Assembly: GCF_002906575.1 (NCBI RefSeq) | Contig: NZ_CP026309.1 | Span: forward strand, 930,001-994,000 | Length of the DNA: 64,000 nt | From: Salinigranum rubrum | GTDB lineage: Archaea; Halobacteriota; Halobacteria; Halobacteriales; Haloferacaceae | Direction: 5' to 3' | Part shown: positions 13,732 through 25,082 of the stretch, one piece after another | Position numbering within the stretch: the first letter of the stretch is position 1 | Layout of the letters: each line of letters starts with the position of its first letter | Translations under genes and position numbers: made by a program | The notes under the pieces: model-generated | The model's database searches: none | What the model saw: only the letters and a program-made list of their open reading frames with translations | Told to the model about the DNA's origin: nothing

Positions 13732-14844
13732 TCAGGTGAGGTCGTCGAGTTCGTCGACGGCCCACTGGTCGGCCGCCGACTCTCTCGGCTCCGACCCCGA
13801 CCCCGACGCGTCGGACTCGCTCTCACTCCCGCTCGCCGCCTCACGCGCGCGCTCGAAGAACGACTCTACCCGCGCCGTCCGCTCGATGCCGCTCAACAGA
13901 ACGAGCGACGCGAGTTTCTCCGAGGCGACGGGGAAGTCGCCGCCGCGGACCTGCATACACCCGGTCTCCTCCTCGACCCAGCGTCGCGCACGCTCGACGC
14001 CCTTCCGCGGGATGGCTTCCGGCCGCCCCGCCACGACGACGAGCGCCGCGTCGGCGCTGTCGGCCTCGATGGCCGTCCCGGTCAGGAGCGCCCGGCGGGT
14101 CGTGCTCGTCACGACGTTGACGTTCTCGGCGGCATCGCGCGCGACCGACGCGTCCGCGTAACCGATCGTCGCGAGCGTCCCGTTCCGAAGGGTGTTGATG
14201 AGTTCCGACGCGTCGACGACCGATTCGGCGACGTCGCTCCCGGTGTCGACCTCGCCCGCCGCGAGCAAGAGTCCGAGTCGGCGCGCGATGGCCTCGTTGA
14301 TCCGCTCGTAGCCCGACCCGAGGCTGTCGCCCGCCCGTCGGAACGAATCGTTGTCGACGAGGAGGACCGAGTCGGCCTCGCGTGCGAGCGTTTTCAACGA
14401 GCGCCCCGCGTTCACCTGGTACATCGCTCCTTCGTCTCGCCCGGGGAGGACGCCGATGGCGTAGACGGGCACGTCGTAGACGCGTTTCAACTCCTGGACG
14501 AGCACCGGCGCGCCCCCCGACCCGGTGCCGCCGCCGAGTCCGGCGACGACGAAGACGGCCTCGGTCGCCGAGTCGATAGTGACCGTGTCGAGTACTTCTT
14601 CGCGGTCCTCGCGCATCACCTGCGCGCCGAGTTCGTTGTCGCCGCCGACGCCGTGGCCGGAGACGCGTGACTGTCCGACGAGAAGGGTCTGTACCGTGTT
14701 GGGGAGCGGGCGGAGGTCGGCCGAGGCGGTGTTGATCGCGACCGCGTGGCGGACGGAGCCGTGGTTCTCGTCAGCATCGAACGCCTGGAGGGCGCTGACG
14801 AGTTTTCCGCCCGCCTGACCGACGCCGATCAGGGCGGACTGCAT
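13732..14844 (-). CDS. cetZ: Tubulin/FtsZ-like cytoskeletal GTPase, CetZ family (CetZ2-like)
   Basis: A 370-aa CetZ protein. The N-terminal GVGQAGGKLVSALQ replaces the usual Rossmann start, and the tubulin signature GGGTGSG sits at residues 104-110 (AGLGGGTGSGGAPVL). GVLPGRDEG and NINEAIA-type GTP-contact segments (here YERINEAIARRLG) are present. The tail (about 340-370) is acidic and Ser/Glu-rich. CetZ proteins control cell shape and motility in haloarchaea; the sequence looks nearer to CetZ2 than to CetZ1 (from memory). It is transcribed divergently from the pilus-like cluster, with only 139 bases between the start codons. Confidence 0.93.
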   Translation of the reverse strand: MQSALIGVGQAGGKLVSALQAFDADENHGSVRHAVAINTASADLRPLPNTVQTLLVGQSRVSGHGVGGDNELGAQVMREDREEVLDTVTIDSATEAVFVVAGLGGGTGSGGAPVLVQELKRVYDVPVYAIGVLPGRDEGAMYQVNAGRSLKTLAREADSVLLVDNDSFRRAGDSLGSGYERINEAIARRLGLLLAAGEVDTGSDVAESVVDASELINTLRNGTLATIGYADASVARDAAENVNVVTSTTRRALLTGTAIEADSADAALVVVAGRPEAIPRKGVERARRWVEEETGCMQVRGGDFPVASEKLASLVLLSGIERTARVESFFERAREAASGSESESDASGSGSEPRESAADQWAVDELDDLT

Positions 14845-14950: not shown

Positions 14951-14960
14951 CTTTTTTATC
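14951..14960 (+). promoter_or_regulatory. TATA box of the 14984 gene
   Basis: CTTTTTTATC lies 24-33 bases before the ATG at 14984, the spacing of a leaderless haloarchaeal transcript. It opens the pilus-like cluster. Confidence 0.6.
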
Positions 14961-14983
14961 GGAGGAGGCGGCCACCGGTTCGC

Positions 14984-15493
14984 ATGACCGACGACATCCG
15001 AACCAGGCTCGACGCGGTCGAACGGGCGGTCGCCGACGGGGAGACCGACCTCACGAACCTCGCCGACGCCGCCAGCGTCGAGAGACGACTCACCGCCGTC
15101 GAGGAGCGACTCGACGCGCTCGAAGCGCGACTCGACACCCTGGACGCGACGACGCAGGCGGTGCGCGGTTACCTCAGCGGCGTCGACGGCGTCACCGAGG
15201 ACGTCGAACGCCAGGCGGCGCTGGCGCTCGCGAAGGCCGAGGCGGTCGAAGCCCACGTGTTCGACGCCGACGAGGGACTCGCCGTCGAACGGGTCCCGGC
15301 GACGGAGGGTCGGAGCGCGGACCGGCCGGACGACGAAGGTCCGGGCGGTCAGCGACGAGACACCGAGCCGACCGGTCCGACCACGGACGTGGATACGAAC
15401 GTCGGCGTCGACCGACCGTCCTCGGGCGTTCTCGACGCCGCTCGAACCGAGCGCGAGTCGTCGCTCGTCGCGCGACTCCGGGACGCGCTGTGA
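14984..15493 (+). CDS. Coiled-coil protein of the pilus-like cluster (DUF7310-like)
   Basis: A 169-aa soluble protein. Residues 1-90 form an almost continuous coiled coil with heptad leucines (VERRLTAVEERLDALEARLDTL), followed by a helix rich in Ala and Glu. Residues of about 105-150 are a low-complexity Pro/Thr/Asp linker, and the last 20 residues (ESSLVARLRDAL) form a short amphipathic helix. It has no signal peptide. The family accompanies the secretion ATPase in haloarchaea; an adaptor role at the cytoplasmic face is inference. Its TGA overlaps the next gene's GTG start. Confidence 0.75.
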   Translation: MTDDIRTRLDAVERAVADGETDLTNLADAASVERRLTAVEERLDALEARLDTLDATTQAVRGYLSGVDGVTEDVERQAALALAKAEAVEAHVFDADEGLAVERVPATEGRSADRPDDEGPGGQRRDTEPTGPTTDVDTNVGVDRPSSGVLDAARTERESSLVARLRDAL

Positions 15494-16044
15494 CTGCGGT
15501 CCGAACGCTTCTCACGGTCGTCGTCGCGACGGCGCTGCTCGGCGCGTCGCTGCCGGCCGTCGAGGACGCTCGAACCGACCGCACCGCCGCGCGACTCGAC
15601 GCGGCGGCCACCCGGCTGTCGGGCGTCTCGGCCGCTCTCGTCGCGGCCGACGACCCGGTCGCCGCCGGTGAACGAGGCGCGGGTCGGACGGTCGTGGTTT
15701 CGCTCCCGTCGGGCGGGTTCGCGGACGCCCGCGCCGCGTATCTCTCCATCGGCGGTCTCCCGAACGACTCCCGACAGCCGCCGACGACGGTCGGCTACCG
15801 CGTCGCCGACAGCCCCCCACGACGGCTCGACGCGGGCGTCCGGTTCTTCGTCGGCGAACGCCCGCTCGTTCTCCCGCCGGGCCGACACACGCTTCGACTG
15901 ACACTCGTTCGGCGGGGCGGGGCGACCGGCGTCCGCGTCAGCGTGGTCGGTCACGCCGGGTCGACGAGGGAGACGAACCGGACGGGACCCCCGATCTCGA
16001 CGGCGACACCGGCCGACGCCGAGCGTCGCTCCCTCGCTCCCTGA
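15490..16044 (+). CDS. Single-pass membrane/exported protein of the pilus-like cluster (DUF7311-like)
   Basis: A 184-aa protein with a GTG start overlapping the previous stop (GTGA). It opens with a short basic N terminus and a hydrophobic segment (residues 5-22, TLLTVVVATALLGASLPAV). A helix follows (DARTDRTAARLDAAATRL), then a beta-rich extracellular-type domain. The overall shape, an N-terminal hydrophobic helix continuing into an amphipathic helix and then a globular domain, is that of a pilin or minor pseudopilin, although no clear Arg-Gly cleavage site is visible. I recall the family as DUF7311; function unknown. Confidence 0.75.
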   Translation: MTAVRTLLTVVVATALLGASLPAVEDARTDRTAARLDAAATRLSGVSAALVAADDPVAAGERGAGRTVVVSLPSGGFADARAAYLSIGGLPNDSRQPPTTVGYRVADSPPRRLDAGVRFFVGERPLVLPPGRHTLRLTLVRRGGATGVRVSVVGHAGSTRETNRTGPPISTATPADAERRSLAP

Positions 16045-16141
16045 ACTCCCCCGCTGCCTGAACGCCCTTTCTCTCCTGCCCTGGACTCTCGCCCTCGTTC
16101 TCTGCGAACGTTCAAATACGGGAACGGGGCCACCCCGGCGC

Positions 16142-18055
16142 ATGACGCTACTCACCGCGCTCGTCGACCGCTCGCGGGCGCTTTTGGGAACCGAGTCCGA
16201 GGTGGCGTGTTCGTGTGACGTCTCCTTCGAGACACCCGCCGGCACCCACACCACGCCCGACACCGAACTCCGCGTCGACGCGGACAACTGTCCCGGGGAA
16301 GGTGACCTGACCTCCTCACCCGACTGCCGAGCGACGGTGATCGGGGCGCTCACCGAACGCGACGCCGACGTCGTCCGCATCCGCGCCGGCGGCGTCGTTC
16401 GCACCTACGTCGACGACGCCTGTGCGTTTCTCGTCGCCGCGGGGCGGTTCGCCGAACGCGCCGCTCACCACGACGAGCGCCTCGCCGCGCGGGCGCTGTA
16501 CGACCCGCTCGGTGCCGCACACGAGGCGACCGGACGGGCCGGACCCGTCGCGCGACTCGCGGCCGAGACGGGCCTCGCACTGGGTGCCGAACGGGTCGCC
16601 GCGGAGGACGGGTACGGCTCCGTCCTTCGGGCGTTCGTCGCACCGACCGTCGCCCGATGTCGCGTCGACGTCGACCCGCCCGTCGGGGCGACGCTCCGTG
16701 ACGCCTGGGACCTCGATACCGGGGCGCGCGTCCGGCTGTACGACGCGACCGACGGGAGGCGGCGCTACCACCTGCTCCCGGCGTGGCACTCCCTCGACGG
16801 GGCGACGCTGGAAACCCTCGGCGCTGCGCGTCGTCTCCTCGCCACTGGCGCTGTCTCGGGCGGGCCTCGCGCTCCCCACCGGGCGGCCCGACGAGTCGCG
16901 GACGACGCCGACCCCGTCGACGAACTCGGCGCGCTCCTCGCGAGATACACCCGCGGCCACGGCGTGCTGGACGACCTCTTCTCGGACTCTCGGGTGACCG
17001 ACGTCTTCGTCACGAGCCCCGTCGACGAGAACCCCGTTCGCGTCGTCGTCGACGGCGCTCGTCTGGCGACGAACGTCCACCTCTCGCCCGAGGGCGCGGC
17101 GGCGCTCGCCTCGCGGTTCCGACGGGCATCGGGTCGAGCGTTCTCGCGGGCGACGCCGACGCTCGACGCGACGGTCGACACACAGACCGACCGCCGCATC
17201 AGACTCGCCGGTGTCGCTCCGCCCGCCAGCGACGGCCTCGGCTTCGCGTTCCGGGCGCACGACGAAACCGCGTGGACGCTCGCCCGCCTCGTCTCCCTCG
17301 GGACGCTCCCGGCCTCTGCGGCCGGGTTGCTCTCGGTCGCCGTCGAGCGCGGGGCGGCGACGCTCGTCGCCGGCCCACGCGGCGCGGGGAAGACGACAAC
17401 GCTCGGCGCGCTCCTCTGGGAACTCCCCACCACGACACGGGCGGTCGTCGTCGAGGACACGCCCGAACTCCCGGTCGCCGCGCTCCGCGAGCAGGACCGC
17501 GACGTTCAGTCGATACGGACCGGACTCGACGACGGGGCCGCGCTCTCGCCCGACGAGGCGCTCCGGGCGGCGTTGCGTCTCGGCGACGGTGCGCTCGCGG
17601 TCGGGGAGGTCCGCGGCGAGGAGGCGCAGGTCCTCTACGAAGCGATGCGCGTCGGTGCGGCCGACGGCGCGGTCCTCGGGACCGTCCACGGCGTCGGCGG
17701 CGACGGGGTAAAAGCGCGGATGGTGACGGACCTCTCCGTCTCGGAGCGGGCCTTCGGCGCGACCGACCTCGTGGTGACGCTCACCGCCGAGGCCGGCCGT
17801 CGTGTGACGCGCGTCGAGGAGGTCCGCACGACGGACGAAAGGGTCCACTTCGCCACGTTGTTCGACATCGAGGACGGGGACGACCGACTCCGGTCGACCG
17901 GCGTACTGGACCGCGGCGAGAGCGTCCTCCTCTCGGCGCTCGCGCTCCCGGGCGAGTCGTACGCGGACGTCCGCGCCCGGGTGTCCGAGCGCGGCGAGGC
18001 CATCGCATGCCACGCGGAGGCTGGGCTCACGGCCCCGGAGGAGCGGGGCTACTGA
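16142..18055 (+). CDS. Type II/IV secretion system ATPase (pilus assembly motor)
   Basis: A 637-aa VirB11/PilT/GspE-type ATPase. The first 60 residues carry a four-Cys segment (CSCDVSF...NCPGEGD...PDC). The N2-type domain includes DDLFSDSRVTDVFVTSP (about 280), then the RecA-like core with Walker A GPRGAGKTTT (about 410), an Asp/Glu box VVVEDTPELPV, Walker B-like LGDGALAVGEVRGEEA (about 480) and the His box GTVHGVGGDG. It powers assembly of a pilus or pseudopilus. It ends one base before the start of the membrane platform gene. The TATA-like TTCAAATA at about 16112 suggests its own promoter. Confidence 0.9.
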   Translation: MTLLTALVDRSRALLGTESEVACSCDVSFETPAGTHTTPDTELRVDADNCPGEGDLTSSPDCRATVIGALTERDADVVRIRAGGVVRTYVDDACAFLVAAGRFAERAAHHDERLAARALYDPLGAAHEATGRAGPVARLAAETGLALGAERVAAEDGYGSVLRAFVAPTVARCRVDVDPPVGATLRDAWDLDTGARVRLYDATDGRRRYHLLPAWHSLDGATLETLGAARRLLATGAVSGGPRAPHRAARRVADDADPVDELGALLARYTRGHGVLDDLFSDSRVTDVFVTSPVDENPVRVVVDGARLATNVHLSPEGAAALASRFRRASGRAFSRATPTLDATVDTQTDRRIRLAGVAPPASDGLGFAFRAHDETAWTLARLVSLGTLPASAAGLLSVAVERGAATLVAGPRGAGKTTTLGALLWELPTTTRAVVVEDTPELPVAALREQDRDVQSIRTGLDDGAALSPDEALRAALRLGDGALAVGEVRGEEAQVLYEAMRVGAADGAVLGTVHGVGGDGVKARMVTDLSVSERAFGATDLVVTLTAEAGRRVTRVEEVRTTDERVHFATLFDIEDGDDRLRSTGVLDRGESVLLSALALPGESYADVRARVSERGEAIACHAEAGLTAPEERGY

Positions 18056-18056
18056 G

Positions 18057-19768
18057 ATGACGTCGACGCTCGCGCACGTACTCATTGGACTCGCCGGCCC
18101 CTGGCCGGGGTCGGTCGACACCGACGAGTCGCTCGACCGGCAGTTGGCATTTCTCGACGCCCCCGTTCGGTCCGACGTGGTCGTCCGCGCCGGCTACACC
18201 GCCGGACTCTTCGCTGCCGTTCTCGCTGGTCTCGTGGGTGTCGCTCTCGGACTCTCCGTTCAGGCTGCCCTGCTCGTCGGTGCGGTCGGCGGAACGACCG
18301 TCGTCCACGCGGTTCACCGCGGACCGGCGGCGCTCGCCGCCGTCGAGCGGACGCGCGCGCTGTGTGCGGCGAGCGACCTCGTCGGTCGGGTCGTCCTCCA
18401 CGCGCGGCTCACCGCGGCCGTCGAACCGGCGGTCGGCTTCGCCGCGCGGACGGGGACGGGGCCGCTCGCGCGGAGCCTCGACGACCACGTCCGACGGGCG
18501 GCCGGGACGCCCGCGTCGGGGCTCGACAGCTTCGCCGCGGCCTGGCGGCCGTGGTTTCCGGCGCTCGAACGTGCCGCGGACCTCGTCACGACCGCCGTCG
18601 ACGCACCCGCGTCGGAGCGGGCCGAACTGCTCGACCACGCACGCTCGGTCGTCGTCAGGGCGACACGGGAGCGGATGGCGTCGTTCGCCGCCGACGTTCG
18701 TGGCCCCGCGACCGCCCTGTACGCGTTCGGCGTCCTGCTCCCGCTGGCGCTCGTCGGTATCCTCCCGGCCGCGGGCGTCGCCGGCGCGTCCGTCTCGCTC
18801 ACGGCGCTCGCGCTCGGCTACGACCTCCTCCTCCCCGCAGTGCTGCTCGGTGCCTCGGGGTGGCTCGTCGTCCGCCGACCGGTCACGTTCGCGACGCCGT
18901 CGGTGTCGCGGACGCATCCTGACGCGCAGGTCCCGTGGTGGCTCCCCGTTCTCGCGGGCCTCCTGACGGCCGGCCTCTCCTGGGCCGTCACGCTCGCAGT
19001 CGTCGGCGCGTGGGCGGCACCGGTGGTCGCCGCCGGCACGGGCGTCGGGGCCGCGCTCGTCGCCCGGTTCCGTCCGGCCGTCGCAGTCAGAGAGCGCGCC
19101 CGCGCCGTCGAAGCGGGGCTGCCGGAGGCGCTCTCGCTCGTCGGCCGGCACGTCCGCGACGGGACGTCCGTCGAGGCTGCCGTCCGGACGGTCGGCGAGG
19201 AACTGTCGACCGAGACCGGAGCGCTGTTCGCGGCGGCGTCGGGCGTCCAGCGTCGGCTCGGCGTCACGCTCTACGAGGCGTTTCTGGGCGAGTTCGGTGT
19301 GCTTTCGCATCTGCCGAGTCCGCGCACCCGCGCGGCCGCGACACTGCTCTCCGTGGCCGCGGTCGAGGGACGGCCCGCCGGCGAGACTGTCGTGACGATG
19401 GCGACGCAACTGCGCGAACTCGAACGCGCCGAACAGGCAGGGAAGCAGGAACTCGCGGCGGTGAGCGGGACGCTCGCCAACACCGCGGCCGTGTTCGGCC
19501 CGCTCGTCGGCGGCGCGACGGTTGCGCTCGCCGCGCGCATCGCGAGCGTCGAGACGGGCGCGGCTGTCGGCCCCGCCTTCGCCGTTCCGGGACTCGGACG
19601 GTCCTCGGGGTGTACGTCTTCGTCATGGCGGCGACGCTGACGGCGCTCGCGACGGGTCTCGAATCGGGTCTCGACCCGACACGCGTCGGCTACCGGGTCG
19701 GCATCGCGCTCGTCCTGGCGGGCGCGACCTTCCTCGTCGGCGTCGTCGCCGCCGGCCTCCTCGTCTGA
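18057..19768 (+). CDS. Type II secretion system F / TadC-like membrane platform protein, with a one-base frameshift
   Basis: The frame beginning at 18057 encodes a polytopic protein with two GspF-like halves, the second marked by ERARAVEAGLPEALSLVGRHVRDG and ERAEQAGKQELAAVSG. It should end in further membrane helices, but at about 19610 the frame degenerates (GRSSGCTSSSW) and stops at 19640. The missing end (VYVFVMAATLTALATGLESG to a TGA at 19766-19768) lies in the neighbouring frame. One extra G in the run at 19607-19610 restores a 570-aa protein of normal type. It is the inner-membrane partner of the preceding ATPase. A true mutation cannot be excluded. Confidence 0.85.
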
Positions 19769-19770
19769 GT

Positions 19771-19780
19771 CTTTTTATAC
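19771..19780 (+). promoter_or_regulatory. TATA box before the 19802 gene
   Basis: CTTTTTATAC lies 22-31 bases before the ATG at 19802 and just after the platform gene's stop. The four accessory genes downstream can therefore be transcribed separately from the ATPase-platform pair. Confidence 0.6.
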
Positions 19781-19801
19781 GGAGACGCGGCCAGAGCGCC
19801 C

Positions 19802-20293
19802 ATGTTCGACGCTCCAGTCGATGCGTGGTACGCGTGGCTCGGCCTCTCGGCCGCGGCACTCGTCGTTCTCGGCGTCGTCACGTCGCTCCCGACGGCACCG
19901 CCGCCGGACGCCTCGGACGTCGCCGGGACCGTCGACGCCGTCGCGACGACCGAGTACGACACGACGGTCAGCCGCGCGCTCGACGCGCAGACGATCCGAG
20001 TCGGCCCGCGACGCATCGGGCTCCGAAACGACGCCGGCACGACGCACGCGACCCTCGGCTATCGCGTCGTTTCTGTCACCCGGGACGCGAGGCTCGTCCG
20101 CGTGCTTCGGGGAGAGACCCCGGAGTCGGCGTTCGACTCCTCCGCGGCGTTCGGGCGGGCGGTGAGCGCCGCCCGCGCACGGGACCCCGCGTGGCGGCCC
20201 GCGGGCGACCACCTGGTCGTTCGCCACGTCTCGTGGGGCGGCGTCGACGTCACGCTCGTCGGGACGCTCGACGCGAGACCGGGGGGCGTCTGA
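19802..20293 (+). CDS. Single-pass membrane protein of the pilus-like cluster (DUF7283-like)
   Basis: A 163-aa protein with an N-terminal hydrophobic helix (residues 8-30, AWYAWLGLSAAALVVLGVVTS) and an extracellular-type domain of about 130 residues. The domain contains the strand RVGPRRIGLRNDAGTTHATLGYRVVSV and ends in a DVTLVGTLDAR strand. I recall the family as DUF7283; function unknown. The topology again resembles a minor pilin without a typical cleavage motif. It is first in a tight run of four genes, with three bases to the next start. Confidence 0.75.
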   Translation: MFDAPVDAWYAWLGLSAAALVVLGVVTSLPTAPPPDASDVAGTVDAVATTEYDTTVSRALDAQTIRVGPRRIGLRNDAGTTHATLGYRVVSVTRDARLVRVLRGETPESAFDSSAAFGRAVSAARARDPAWRPAGDHLVVRHVSWGGVDVTLVGTLDARPGGV

Positions 20294-20295
20294 GC

Positions 20296-20688
20296 GTGTT
20301 CGACCCCGCGCCCTCTCGCCGAGGACAGGTCGAACCGCTCGCGGCGCTGGCCGCCCTGTTCGCCGTCTGTGTCGGGCTGTCGACGTACGCGCTCGTCGTC
20401 GCCGACGCCGGCGTCTCGACCGACCGTGACGCTGCCGGCCCGGCGCTGGCTGCCGTCCACGACGAGGTCTCCGTTCGAGGCGTCGTCCATCCGGACCGCC
20501 TCGGGCGCGCACTCGACGCGCGGCCGCTCGGCTCCCGGCTCAACGTCTCGCTCACGACGGACGGGCGACAGTGGACGGTAGGGCCCGACGCCGCGGTACG
20601 CGGCGACCGGGCGTTCCGGCGCGTGAGCGTCCGCCTCGGGCCGGGACGCGTGCGCCACGGCCGGCTCCGGGCGGTGGTGTGGCGATGA
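20296..20688 (+). CDS. Prepilin-like protein of the pilus-like cluster (DUF7285-like)
   Basis: A 130-aa protein starting at GTG 20296. After a short charged leader comes Arg-Arg-Gly (residues 8-10) and then QVEPLAALAALFAVCVGLS, a hydrophobic helix. This is the layout of an archaeal class III prepilin processed after the Gly by the PibD/EppA peptidase (inference from the motif). The remaining 90 residues form a small Asp/Arg-rich domain with strands such as SRLNVSLTTDGRQWTVG. It resembles TadE-type pseudopilins. Its TGA overlaps the next ATG (ATGA). Confidence 0.75.
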   Translation: MFDPAPSRRGQVEPLAALAALFAVCVGLSTYALVVADAGVSTDRDAAGPALAAVHDEVSVRGVVHPDRLGRALDARPLGSRLNVSLTTDGRQWTVGPDAAVRGDRAFRRVSVRLGPGRVRHGRLRAVVWR

Positions 20689-21530
20689 GTCGCGACGAGC
20701 GGGGAATCAGCACCGTCGTCGACGTGTCGGTGTTTCTCCTCCTCGTGAGCGCCGCGGTGTTCTCGGTCGTGACCGCCCCTGCCGACCCCGTCGGCGCGAC
20801 GGTGACTCCCGAGCGCGACGAGGCCACGGTCGAGACGCTCGCGACGACCACCACCACTGTCGGATACGACCTCGGCGTCGACGACCGGACCGGCGAGCCG
20901 ATCGAGCGCGTCCGCCACGGGACGCTGGCCGAACTCCTCGCCGAGGCCGCCGTCGCGAACGCCTCGGTCGACGGGACGCCCACCTCGCCGTACGCCGCCG
21001 GCTTCGTCGACGCGGTCCGTGCGTCCGTCACGCCGCTGTTCGACGGCCGGACGCAGGTCGTCGCGACGTGGCGACCCCTCCCGGGGAGCGGCCTCGTCGG
21101 GGAGGTCCGCGTCGGTCCCACGCCGCCGGCCGGCGCGACGGTCCACGCTGCGACCCTGTCGGTCGACAGCGGGATGCCGGCCGCCCGCGACTCGGCGCTG
21201 GCTGCCTCGTCGGGCGGGTACGGACGCGTCGCGGACGTCGCCGCCCGCCGCACCGTCGACGGGTTGTTCCCGCCCCGCCGGACGCGGGTCGCGCTGCGCG
21301 GCGGCGCGGCAGACGCCGTCGTCGTCCGCGAGCGGTTCGCGTCGATGCGGTCGACGTACGGCTCGGAGACGACGTTCGACGCGGGCGTCGAGCCCGCAAC
21401 GACCGACCTCGCGGTGGCAGTCGCCGAACGAACCGAACGGTCCTTCGAGCGGCGGTTCGAGACGCCGCGGGCGGCGGCCGAGTCGGTTCGGACCGCCCGC
21501 GTGACCGTCGTCGTCAGGACGTGGTCCTGA
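20685..21530 (+). CDS. Prepilin-like protein of the pilus-like cluster (DUF7284-like)
   Basis: A 281-aa protein. The N terminus reads MSRDERG and then ISTVVDVSVFLLLVSAAVFS, a prepilin-like Arg-Gly site (residues 6-7) before a hydrophobic helix, reminiscent of haloarchaeal PilA signals. The ectodomain has a Thr-rich stretch (TLATTTTTVGYDLG), a strand-rich central part and a C-terminal helix plus strand (SVRTARVTVVVRTWS). I recall the family as DUF7284; function unknown. Both ends overlap the neighbouring genes by one to four bases. Confidence 0.75.
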   Translation: MSRDERGISTVVDVSVFLLLVSAAVFSVVTAPADPVGATVTPERDEATVETLATTTTTVGYDLGVDDRTGEPIERVRHGTLAELLAEAAVANASVDGTPTSPYAAGFVDAVRASVTPLFDGRTQVVATWRPLPGSGLVGEVRVGPTPPAGATVHAATLSVDSGMPAARDSALAASSGGYGRVADVAARRTVDGLFPPRRTRVALRGGAADAVVVRERFASMRSTYGSETTFDAGVEPATTDLAVAVAERTERSFERRFETPRAAAESVRTARVTVVVRTWS

Positions 21531-24500
21531 TGCGGCTGGCAGACGACACCCGCGGGCGGGTCCCGTTCGCGCTCATCGGCGTGTTGCTCCTCCTCGGGAG
21601 CACGACGTACGCGAGTACGCTCGCCACGGGGAATCCGAGAGTCGACCGGGACGCCGAGGTGGCGATGGACCGGGCGGCGGCGGCCTCCGAGACGGCGCTC
21701 CGGACCGCGGTTTCGCGCGCCGCTCGGGACGCCGCGCGAACGCCCGTCGTCGACCCGGCGGCCAACACCTGGGGCGACGTCGTGAACGACTCCCGGCCGT
21801 TCCGCGACAGCCTCCGGATCAGAATCTACGTCGCCGCACGCGAGAGTTTCGAGCGCGCTTCGTACTCCCGCGGTGACGTCGTCGCCGCCGCCTCGCTGCC
21901 GGCGACGCCGACGGCCGAAGCCCTCGACCGGGGACTCGACCGCGTTCGCGTCCGCAGCGTCGAGAACGGCACGTCGCTGGAGGTGCGCCTCAGCAACGTC
22001 TCGGTGGTCGCCCGAGAGCAGGGGACGGTAGTCGCTCGCGAGACGACGAACTGGACAGTCATCGTCGCGACGCCCGTCCTCGCGCTCCACGACCGCACAG
22101 TCGGATTCGAGGAGTCGCTGGCGCGTGGCCCGCTCGAAGGGCCCGGACTCGGACGGCGACTCACCGCCCGTCTCTACCCACTCGCCTGGGCGCGCGGCTA
22201 CGGGCAGTGGGGTGGCGCGCCCGTCAGCAACGTCGTCAGCACTCGCCACGTGGGCGTGGCGACGAACGGGGCCGTCCTCGAACTCCAGCAGGCGGCGTAC
22301 GGGCACGCGGACCCGACCGGCCGAGCGGCCCAGCGGACCGCGCTCGCTCGCTTCGCCCAGCAGGAGGCCCGCGCCGGATTGAGTACGCCCGGGACGAGTC
22401 TGGCGACGAGCGTCGCCCCGCCGCCGACGGTCGACCCCGACGACGCACCGAGACAGGTGCCGCGACTCGCGCGTTCGGACGCCCCGACGCCGGAGAAACG
22501 GGTCGACGTCGGCGTCAACGACACGGCCGACGGGGCGTACGCCGCGTTGCAGGAGGGCGATTCGGGTCCGTCGCTCGACGAGGTGCTCGAACGCGCCTAC
22601 CGGGTGAATCTCACCCTTCGAACGCAAGCGACGCTCGTCGAGACGGAGCCGTGGCCGCGGCCACGACCCCCGCGTCCCGACGTCACGCTCGTCAACGAGT
22701 CGGTCACGTCCCGCGCGACGGTCGAACCCGGGTCGGCGTCGCTGCCGGCGCGTCCGCCGAACGCGACCCGGTTCCGGGCCGAGACCCGGCACGTCGCGGT
22801 CAGCCACACCCTCCGGTGGACCTGGGCGCGAGGAAACACGACCTTCGAGTCGACGGCGACGGTGCGGGAGCGGTACGCCGTCGGCGTCGCCGTCGACGGC
22901 TCCCTCCCGGCGCTTCCCGGTACCCCCGACAGGCCGGTCGTTCCCGTCTTCGAGGAGGGCGGCGCTCTCGACGGTCCCAACCTCGGCGACGTTCCTTCAG
23001 AGGCCGACGGGTTCCTCGCGGACCGGGGCGGCGTCCGGAGCATCGCCGAGACGCGAGCGCTCGACGGCCCGGACGCGCTCGACCGGAACGGGACGGTCAC
23101 GGGTGACCGACCGGCGGACCTCCGCGAGTGGGTCACGGCGGACCTCCTCGCCCTCAACCGGGCGGTCCGAAACGCCTCGACGTCCGTCCGGATGGGCGAC
23201 GCCGCCACCGGGCGGGCGAACCCGTCGGCGAACCTCTCAGCACGGCTCGCCACTCGTCGAGACGCGCTCGTCGACGCCCCGACGCAGTACGACGGCGCCG
23301 CCGACCGTGCCCGCGTCGCCGTCCGGGCGGCGTACCTCGCGCGGGTCGACGCACGGCTCTCGGACCGCTCGGACGCGGCGGCGGGAGCGAACGACCGGCT
23401 CGAAAGCGTCCTGCGCGACCGGGGCGTCGACCTCGACGGCTGGGCGACGGAGGTCATGTCCACCCGCACCGACACGTCCCCCGACCCGTACTCCGTCGGC
23501 GGACCGCTCGGCGGCGAAGACGCGTTCGTCCCGCAGGGCGGCCCGCCGTACCTCGACGTTCAGGGCGTCGACCGCACCGACGCGGCGTGGAGCACGCGTC
23601 ACGGGACCGAGTACCCGCTGCGGACGCGGAACGTCAACGTGTTCACCGTCCCGTACGGCGACGCGGTCGACGCCGTGTTCGAGACGACCGAGACGGAGAC
23701 CGTCCGGCTTCACACCGCGGCCGTGACGCTCCGCGCCGCCGAACGAGCCGAGGAGTCGATGCCGGCGACTCGACGCGACGCCCTCGACGAGGGAGTCTCC
23801 CGGTCGCTCGACCACGTCGGTTCCCGGACGCGGGAGGTCCTCCGACGCGAGACGACGCTCTCGTACTCGGACGCGGACCGAGCCGTCGACGACGCCTTCG
23901 CGACGTGGAACCGGACCTCGGCGCGAGCGCTCGCGGTCACGAACGGTTCGTTCGTCCCGCGCGTGGTCAACGAGGCTGGCCTCGACGGACGGGAGGCCGC
24001 TCGGGTTCGGGTCCACCTCCGGGCCGCCGTGGCGAAGGCCCGAGACAGCGAGAAGACGCGCGTCGAGCGCGAGTACGTCGACGACGCGGCCAGCGCGGTC
24101 AGGGAGTTCTCGAAGGCGGCGGCCACCGAAGCGGTCGGGGCGGCCGTCGGAAACGGGACGGACCGACTCGCGAAGCGGACGAAGGGGAAGGCAGTGGTGC
24201 TCCCCGCGGGTCTCCCGCTCCTCCCGACGCCGACTAACTGGTACGCCACCGTGAACGTCTGGGACGTCCACGTTCGCGGGTACTACCCGCGCTTCGCCGT
24301 CCGAACGACGCGGGGCGGTCCCGGGAAGACGGTGACGTACGTCCGTGACGGCGGCTGTGCGACGCTGGACATCGACGAGGACGGCAGCGAGGAGAAACTC
24401 GGCTGTGCGTCGCGTGTCGACGTCTCGGTTCGTACCGTCGTCCTCGTCGCGGTCCCGCCCGGTAAGACGGGCGTCGGCGACACCGACGGTCAGGCCGTCG

Positions 24501-24589
24501 AGGACTCGCCCGGGTGGGACGAGCCGTACCCCTGGGAGGAGAACCCGGAGGAGCAGTACCGTCCCCCGGTCGGTCGACTCTCCCCCTGA
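21530..24589 (+). CDS. Giant prepilin-like surface protein of the pilus-like cluster (DUF7286-like)
   Basis: A 1019-aa protein, the largest in the window. The leader MRLADDTRG precedes a hydrophobic helix (VPFALIGVLLLLGSTTYAST), so the Arg8-Gly9 pair again looks like a prepilin cleavage site. The rest is a long extracellular-type region with many N-glycosylation sequons (NDS, NGT, NVS, NWT, NDT, NLT, NES and others) and alternating helical and strand-rich parts. Near the end NWYATVNVWDVHVRGYYPRF is well ordered, and the extreme C terminus is Pro/Glu-rich. It could be the tip adhesin or main surface subunit of the machine (inference). Its ATG shares one base with the previous stop. Confidence 0.75.
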   Translation: MRLADDTRGRVPFALIGVLLLLGSTTYASTLATGNPRVDRDAEVAMDRAAAASETALRTAVSRAARDAARTPVVDPAANTWGDVVNDSRPFRDSLRIRIYVAARESFERASYSRGDVVAAASLPATPTAEALDRGLDRVRVRSVENGTSLEVRLSNVSVVAREQGTVVARETTNWTVIVATPVLALHDRTVGFEESLARGPLEGPGLGRRLTARLYPLAWARGYGQWGGAPVSNVVSTRHVGVATNGAVLELQQAAYGHADPTGRAAQRTALARFAQQEARAGLSTPGTSLATSVAPPPTVDPDDAPRQVPRLARSDAPTPEKRVDVGVNDTADGAYAALQEGDSGPSLDEVLERAYRVNLTLRTQATLVETEPWPRPRPPRPDVTLVNESVTSRATVEPGSASLPARPPNATRFRAETRHVAVSHTLRWTWARGNTTFESTATVRERYAVGVAVDGSLPALPGTPDRPVVPVFEEGGALDGPNLGDVPSEADGFLADRGGVRSIAETRALDGPDALDRNGTVTGDRPADLREWVTADLLALNRAVRNASTSVRMGDAATGRANPSANLSARLATRRDALVDAPTQYDGAADRARVAVRAAYLARVDARLSDRSDAAAGANDRLESVLRDRGVDLDGWATEVMSTRTDTSPDPYSVGGPLGGEDAFVPQGGPPYLDVQGVDRTDAAWSTRHGTEYPLRTRNVNVFTVPYGDAVDAVFETTETETVRLHTAAVTLRAAERAEESMPATRRDALDEGVSRSLDHVGSRTREVLRRETTLSYSDADRAVDDAFATWNRTSARALAVTNGSFVPRVVNEAGLDGREAARVRVHLRAAVAKARDSEKTRVEREYVDDAASAVREFSKAAATEAVGAAVGNGTDRLAKRTKGKAVVLPAGLPLLPTPTNWYATVNVWDVHVRGYYPRFAVRTTRGGPGKTVTYVRDGGCATLDIDEDGSEEKLGCASRVDVSVRTVVLVAVPPGKTGVGDTDGQAVEDSPGWDEPYPWEENPEEQYRPPVGRLSP

Positions 24590-24653
24590 GCTACGGAGCG
24601 TTCCGGGACACCGAAGTGACAACCGTTTTCATCCCCCAGGTCCACACACCGGT

Positions 24654-25082
24654 ATGTTCTACGACGTGGTCGACGACCCGGCGTCACACGATGCGGGGGA
24701 ACTCCGCGCCGCGTACGAGCGGGCGCTCGCCGACGTCATCGACGAGCACGGCGCAGCGGCCGTCGCCGCCGAGTCCGGCGTCGACGCGGAGCGTCTCTCG
24801 GCGCTCGCCGCGGGCGAGGAGGCCGACCTCACCGTCGAAGAGGCGATGGCCGTCCTCGCCGTTGACGCGGACCTCGACGCCGAGACCATGACACTCGAAC
24901 TTCAGGACCGACTCCTCATGGGGATGACGACGGGCGTCCTCGACGTCGACACGCTCGCCGCGGAGACCGACCTCGACCTCTCGGGTCAGGAGGTCCAGCA
25001 GTCGCTCGAAGGGCGTCGGCAGACGACGCTCGCCGAACTCGCGGCCATCCACCGCGTCATCGCCGTCCGGAACGACCGCTGA
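24654..25082 (+). CDS. DUF5791 family protein
   Basis: A 142-aa acidic, mostly helical protein beginning MFYDVVDDP. The conserved core reads LRAAYERALADVIDEHG, then GVDAERLSALAAGEEADLTVEEAMAVLA (helix-turn-helix-like packing) and LLMGMTTGVLDVDTLA, typical of haloarchaeal DUF5791. Function unknown. The ATG at 24654 follows a TTTTCAT-rich patch about 27 bases upstream that may be its promoter, so it is probably separate from the pilus-like cluster. The next gene follows eight bases after its stop. Confidence 0.8.
   Translation: MFYDVVDDPASHDAGELRAAYERALADVIDEHGAAAVAAESGVDAERLSALAAGEEADLTVEEAMAVLAVDADLDAETMTLELQDRLLMGMTTGVLDVDTLAAETDLDLSGQEVQQSLEGRRQTTLAELAAIHRVIAVRNDR

Follow-up and report, generated by a model that had tools for sequence, protein, structure and literature searches.

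A haloarchaeal operon beside cetZ2 that probably encodes a type IV pilus machine of the subclade 4F or pilB2/C2 kind

The eight genes at 14984-24589 of the window (the whole 64,000 nt stretch of Salinigranum rubrum DNA analysed here), adjacent and co-directional on the plus strand with several junctions overlapping by 1-4 bases, are likely to encode a type IV pilus machine of the archaeal kind published as subclade 4F, or pilB2/C2; judging from the sequence comparisons, we put the probability of this reading at roughly 70%. A type IV pilus-like machine had been proposed at the outset, and homology, gene order and the phylogeny of the ATPase all agree with that original prediction. The accompanying suggestion of an undescribed surface system did not survive, as the operon matches both subclade 4F (Makarova, Koonin & Albers 2016, PMC4858521) and the pilB2/C2 regulon (Brown & Duggin 2023, PMC9856176), and is the system of those published predictions. 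The literature searched contained no phenotype or experimental test of a pilB2/C2-type system.

Table 1. Features of the operon, its neighbours and associated elements (window positions, unless a genome and contig are named)
Feature	Position	Strand	Evidence
CetZ2, tubulin-like, divergent neighbour	13732..14844	-	CetZ_C, 2e-62
Promoter-like site 1, before DUF7310: TATA-like TTTTTTAT and GGCGGCCA, one mismatch to CGSGRCCA	14952..14974	+	sequence; cross-locus consensus
DUF7310, soluble coiled-coil protein, 169 aa	14984..15493	+	PF23991, 8.6e-27
DUF7311, N-terminal hydrophobic helix; GTG start overlaps previous stop	15490..16044	+	PF23993, 7e-36
Promoter-like site 2, before ATPase: TTCAAATAC and CGGGGCCA	16111..16132	+	cross-locus consensus
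VirB11/TadA-type secretion ATPase, PilB2-type	16142..18055	+	T2SSE, 8.3e-18 (Pfam)
TadC/PilC-type platform, main frame	18057..19640	+	family profile
Platform C-terminal ~53 residues, other frame, TVLGVYVFVMAATLTALATGLES...	19601..19768	+	alignment with relatives
Promoter-like site 3, before DUF7283: CTTTTTATA and CGCGGCCA	19771..19793	+	cross-locus consensus
DUF7283, N-terminal hydrophobic helix	19802..20293	+	PF23954, 2e-52
DUF7285, prepilin-like: RRGQVEP then hydrophobic helix	20296..20688	+	PF23956, 4e-33
DUF7284, prepilin-like: ERGISTVVD then helix	20685..21530	+	PF23955, 1e-79
DUF7286, 1019 aa, N-terminus TRGRVPFALIGVLLL, large predicted external region	21530..24589	+	PF23957, 1108 bits
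DUF5791, conserved flanking gene	24645..25082	+	in 61/66 named loci
DUF7382, candidate pilin	G000:C1:439417-439932		homology to methanogen pilin
ParA/MinD-like ATPase	G030:C4:41830-42618 (L244/L272); G000:C1:3881027-3881746		co-occurrence
RNA family, example	G000:C1:1096523-1096635 (L266)	+	
RNA family, example	G030:C3:535195-535306 (L262)	-	

Conservation, flanks and loss of the operon

The six accessory families originally named for this locus, DUF7310, 7311, 7283, 7285, 7284 and 7286, were all correct, every match exceeding the Pfam cut-offs (E-values 9e-27 to 0). Among 145 sampled genomes from 59 genera of the class Halobacteria, DUF7286 was found in 111 genomes and 43 genera. The ATPase, TadC, DUF7283, DUF7285, DUF7284 and DUF7286 occurred together in every one of the 66 named loci that extended far enough upstream, joined by DUF7310 in 64 and DUF7311 in 63, these loci having been picked via the DUF7286 N-terminal motif and being biased accordingly toward canonical arrangements. 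The constancy of this core of six goes far beyond chance, and the accessory genes are, as predicted, kept alongside the ATPase across Halobacteria; all six core genes stand side by side in 36 of the 45 fetched loci that have a full DUF7286. The locus of Halorussus ruber (L172) is inverted, with DUF7283-7286 and the ATPase/TadC pair on one strand and DUF7310 and DUF7311 on the other. To regard the accessory families as strictly haloarchaeal was too narrow: DUF7286 matches Methanosarcina acetivorans, and a DUF7311-like protein is encoded near a methanogen ATPase.

Among solved structures in the PDB, those nearest to the ATPase are the archaeal GspE-type 2oap, CpaF and FlaI. A tree of 38 ATPases placed the 18 from these loci in a single clade (support 100/99), with methanogen ATPases from other Halobacteriota orders as their sister (joint branch 100/99), and with the genome's own FlaI and other PilB-type paralogues outside. 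The anticipated distinctness from the archaellum and from the other PilB systems of the genome is hence upheld, the ATPase having a clade of its own apart from the genome's archaellum and PilB paralogues, and the core six staying together in all of the 66 named loci. Four cysteines of its N-terminal region (Cys 23, 25, 50 and 62) are kept in 29-30 of 30 haloarchaeal sequences, three of them also in 7-8 of 8 methanogen sequences. Where a full DUF7286 has no adjacent ATPase, an orthologue was present elsewhere in eight of the nine genomes, and no intact orthologue was detected in the five remnant or fragmented genomes or in the 20 DUF7286-free ones. One genome without the operon carries an ATPase N-terminal relic of 117 residues with 53% identity (G044:C21:233174-233524).

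The divergent neighbour upstream was missing from the original prediction. Its product is closer to the CetZ2 structure of H. volcanii (4b45, 7e-137) than to that of CetZ1 (4b46, 3e-98), which identifies it as CetZ2; a CetZ gene is within reach in 50 of the 66 named loci. Downstream of the operon are DUF5791, which probably corresponds to arCOG04674, an epimerase and a DHH-type gene. Four operon-less genomes (L077:11443-12321, L078, L079 and L080) keep scars of the operon between CetZ2 and DUF5791, one deletion having left an in-frame fusion of DUF7310 to the C terminus of DUF7286. Because of the position of these scars, the operon is taken to have been once present and then lost en bloc in four lineages. 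Whole-operon scars argue for loss over recent gain, and the published proposal that pilB2/C2 is a mobile, recently acquired element (PMC9856176) is rejected for these four lineages.

The TadC platform, described at first as clearly recognisable, falls below the cut-off in Pfam (T2SSF, 0.014) and is recognised by a family profile, which matches 36 of 45 fetched loci and all 66 named loci. The reading frame is lost near 19600 (19590-19640), after which the main frame adds an alien tail and terminates at 19640, and the last helices of the family (LGVYVFVMAATLTALATGLES...) run on in the other frame to 19768. All aligned relatives keep one continuous frame there, the break being found only in the Salinigranum rubrum window, where it reflects a single-base error in GC-rich sequence or else a recent mutation, and may inactivate the platform copy of this strain. 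Compatible with the pilus reading is the tentative view that the strain's system is broken, a TadC without its last ~53 residues marking the first step of decay; the intact frames of the relatives and the repeated decay of the operon in other genomes speak for this, whilst the remaining operon genes and the pilin of the strain are all intact and a one-base sequencing error is plausible in so GC-rich a stretch (~74% G+C, 18-20 kb); we consider decay possible and the less probable case.

Prepilin-like subunits and a remote candidate pilin

The N-termini of DUF7285, DUF7284 and DUF7286 read as prepilin-like, and are newly described as such here. Relatives of DUF7285 start with [RK][GA]QxEP, and DUF7284 in most lineages with R[GA][VIM]STVxD, in both cases with a hydrophobic helix directly after; these N-termini agree with the archaeal prepilin processing sites KGQV, RAQI, KGIS and RAVS listed in a review (PMC4371748). 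In the f1 clade (L037-L049), DUF7284 mostly lacks the R[GA][VI]S leader and begins with MTSTVLD or a close variant, looking as though the gene specified the mature protein. All 46 DUF7286 sequences with an intact N-terminus have the motif [DE]R[GA]RVPFA and a hydrophobic helix, the +1 residue usually being an atypical arginine, which we take to be outside the FlaFind pattern. By this reading of motifs, class III prepilin signals are clear in DUF7285 and in DUF7382, a remotely encoded protein, present in DUF7284 of most lineages and atypical in DUF7286. In fold searches against the PDB, the confident alpha+beta model of DUF7284 (pLDDT 90.8) matched no solved structure, and the acceptable model of DUF7286 (pLDDT 81.1) matched no solved pilin or other entry. 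Of the remaining accessory proteins, DUF7310 probably corresponds to arCOG07564, the coiled coil of subclade 4F systems, and a methanogen relative of DUF7311 adjoins an A24 prepilin peptidase.

The reported lack of a major pilin and a prepilin peptidase holds locally and fails genome-wide, since three accessory proteins are prepilin-like, the genome has one match to the PF06847 peptidase, at G000:C1:4193482, and a candidate pilin is encoded far from the operon. In f18 methanogens (L130-L133), a small protein whose N-terminus reads DERGVEGLPVRLIVVLVVGV adjoins the orthologous ATPase/TadC pair; its clear homologue in Salinigranum rubrum is DUF7382 (DERAIEGLPVRLVVALVVGV), which has a weak Ig-like match and lies ~505 kb from the locus. 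These methanogen loci also have a HerA-like ATPase near the pair, and some an A24 prepilin peptidase and a DUF7311-like protein (read in L132). Every one of the 107 genomes with full DUF7286 has DUF7382, as do 3 of the other 38 (107/0/3/35, n=145), and two of these three hold operon remnants. The Fisher value for the association, 1.7e-30, ignores phylogeny; the link is nevertheless robust because of the repeated losses. DUF7382 therefore appears to be the candidate stand-alone major pilin of the operon, and its co-occurrence and methanogen homologue together give independent support to the 2016 suggestion of such a pilin by Makarova and colleagues; it probably corresponds to arCOG02981.

In the machine that we propose, the genome's PibD-type peptidase would cleave the leaders of DUF7382, 7285, 7284 and 7286, and the ATPase and TadC platform would power the growth of a filament from DUF7382. 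The DUF7285-7284-7286 proteins, encoded as a tight trio, would form an initiating or tip (minor-pilin) complex in which DUF7286, a candidate tip or adhesin subunit, would be the large exposed part. DUF7311 and DUF7283 would act as membrane accessories and DUF7310 as a cytoplasmic regulator, whilst CetZ2 and a ParA/MinD-like ATPase may position the machine. Adhesion, cell-cell contact and DNA exchange are candidate roles; analogy favours adhesion or aggregation most.

Several observations count against the pilus reading: the +1 arginine of DUF7286, the loss of the DUF7284 leader in f1, a genome (G045) with full DUF7286 and the pilin yet no ATPase orthologue, another (G109) with the DUF7382 pilin and no operon, the TadC frameshift, and the lack of a match to a solved pilin for the DUF7284 and DUF7286 models. 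A joint set of three prepilin-like subunits, including a very large one for which many helices are predicted, is also how a pseudopilus tip complex is laid out, and the ATPase has weak matches to GspE and BasE models; the operon might instead specify a short type II secretion-like or bindosome-like machine that moves or displays proteins, with DUF7286 as the displayed or piston-tip part. We regard this as unlikely, given that a dedicated small pilin with a weak Ig-like match, found wherever DUF7286 is complete, fits a homopolymeric filament.

A promoter element shared beyond the operon

Two internal promoters had been predicted. Three promoter-like sites are in fact present, that at 16111 before the ATPase having been overlooked, and the one placed at 14951 precedes the first gene and is thus not internal. 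Across 76 loci, the sequence before DUF7283 has a sharp AT peak at -30 to -24 (AT fraction 0.92-0.99 at -30..-27), and 13 bases below this peak, or TATA box, lies a C-rich element with the core CGSGRCCA. A less sharp version of this arrangement precedes DUF7310 and the ATPase; in the same cross-locus comparison it was absent before TadC, DUF7284 and DUF5791. The 12 DUF7382 genes read all have a TATA box, with CGSGRCCA exact in nine, one base off in two and two bases off in one.

A further explanation is that the ATPase/TadC module acts on a shared pool of general PilA pilins, the DUFs of the operon merely modifying those pili. Seven Pilin_N matches lie elsewhere in the genome, ATPase/TadC modules have been argued to be able to use different pilin sets (PMC4858521), and PilB3-C3 compensates for the loss of PilB1-C1 in H. 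volcanii (PMC6491452); however, DUF7382 both tracks the operon and carries its promoter element, and a shared pool seems to us highly improbable.

A ParA/MinD-like ATPase also co-occurs with the operon (88/19/2/36, n=145, in the same order as for DUF7382), the 19 being divergent lineages, and its gene carries the CGSGRCCA promoter element in several genomes; it is a candidate positioning factor. The element is not private to the operon, as ~4-20 copies per genome were present in the operon-bearing genomes tested, and in two genomes examined it mostly precedes an intergenic structured RNA-like family. This multi-copy family of ~112 nt has its own TATA and CGSGRCCA promoter and two interlaced stems forming a pseudoknot, for which 98.2% of cells are paired and 9 of 13 pairs show changes on both sides, with none of 500 shuffles scoring as high. 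It had no match in Rfam and no copy inside the locus of the window, and was detected in 99 of 145 genomes, with up to at least 26 copies each, the best 26 candidates per genome being scored. The copies read lie between housekeeping genes, with no TnpB recognised by eye beside them. It is possibly an undescribed haloarchaeal RNA family. That it tracks the pilus is an idea weakened by the detection of no copy in some pilus-bearing genomes and of many in the pilus-less G056, G109 and G012. A dispersed pilus regulon, in which the operon promoters, DUF7382, the ParA/MinD-like ATPase and the RNA family would all stand under the one CGSGRCCA element, is a rather doubtful proposal; if it were true, a common factor would tie the building of the pilus to the RNA family.

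Relation to known pili and to published predictions

The ATPase is homologous to that of the archaellum (ArlI/FlaI), yet scores 74.6 bits against a FlaI cut-off of 550, whereas the genome's own FlaI reaches 854 bits (NCBIfam). With the bacterial Tad (Flp) pilus the operon shares a TadA-like ATPase and a TadC-like platform; the score of the ATPase is nonetheless 111 bits, against a TadA cut-off of 373, and unlike the Tad system, with its TadB and TadC, the locus has one platform gene, no secretin and no Flp pilin. The PilB3-C3/PilA pili of Haloferax volcanii (clade 2) rely on the same general mechanism, an ATPase, a TadC-type platform and class III prepilins, but differ in pilin family and minor subunits, and the locus ATPase falls outside the clade of the genome's other PilB-type ATPases.

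The pilB2/C2 regulon, which adjoins cetZ2 and was described with a small conserved gene and an epimerase close by (PMC9856176), has the same flanks as the present operon, CetZ2 on one side and the small conserved protein and epimerase on the other. It was suggested to be a mobile, recently acquired element, whereas the remnants reported here point to ancestral presence and loss in the four lineages that keep them. The system has been a named prediction since 2016, and the candidate pilin, minor pilins, ParA-like partner and promoter element make it testable; gene deletions in Haloferax would also probe whether CetZ2, a tubulin relative, positions a pilus.

Subclade 4F was described as a halobacterial type IV pilus whose loci include the coiled coil arCOG07564, an ATPase with a Cys-rich variable N-domain and, next door, an FtsZ-like gene; its major pilin stands alone and is linked to a Methanocella locus (PMC4858521). 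The present operon shares with it the ATPase with its Cys-rich N-terminus, the methanogen sisters, TadC, the coiled coil, the FtsZ-like neighbour and the stand-alone pilin; under our inferred mapping of arCOGs to Pfam families no difference in kind was found, and the ATPase itself probably belongs in subclade 4F. To the published account of 4F this analysis adds the co-occurrence counts, the shared promoter element, the ParA-like partner, the deletion scars and the minor-pilin N-termini.
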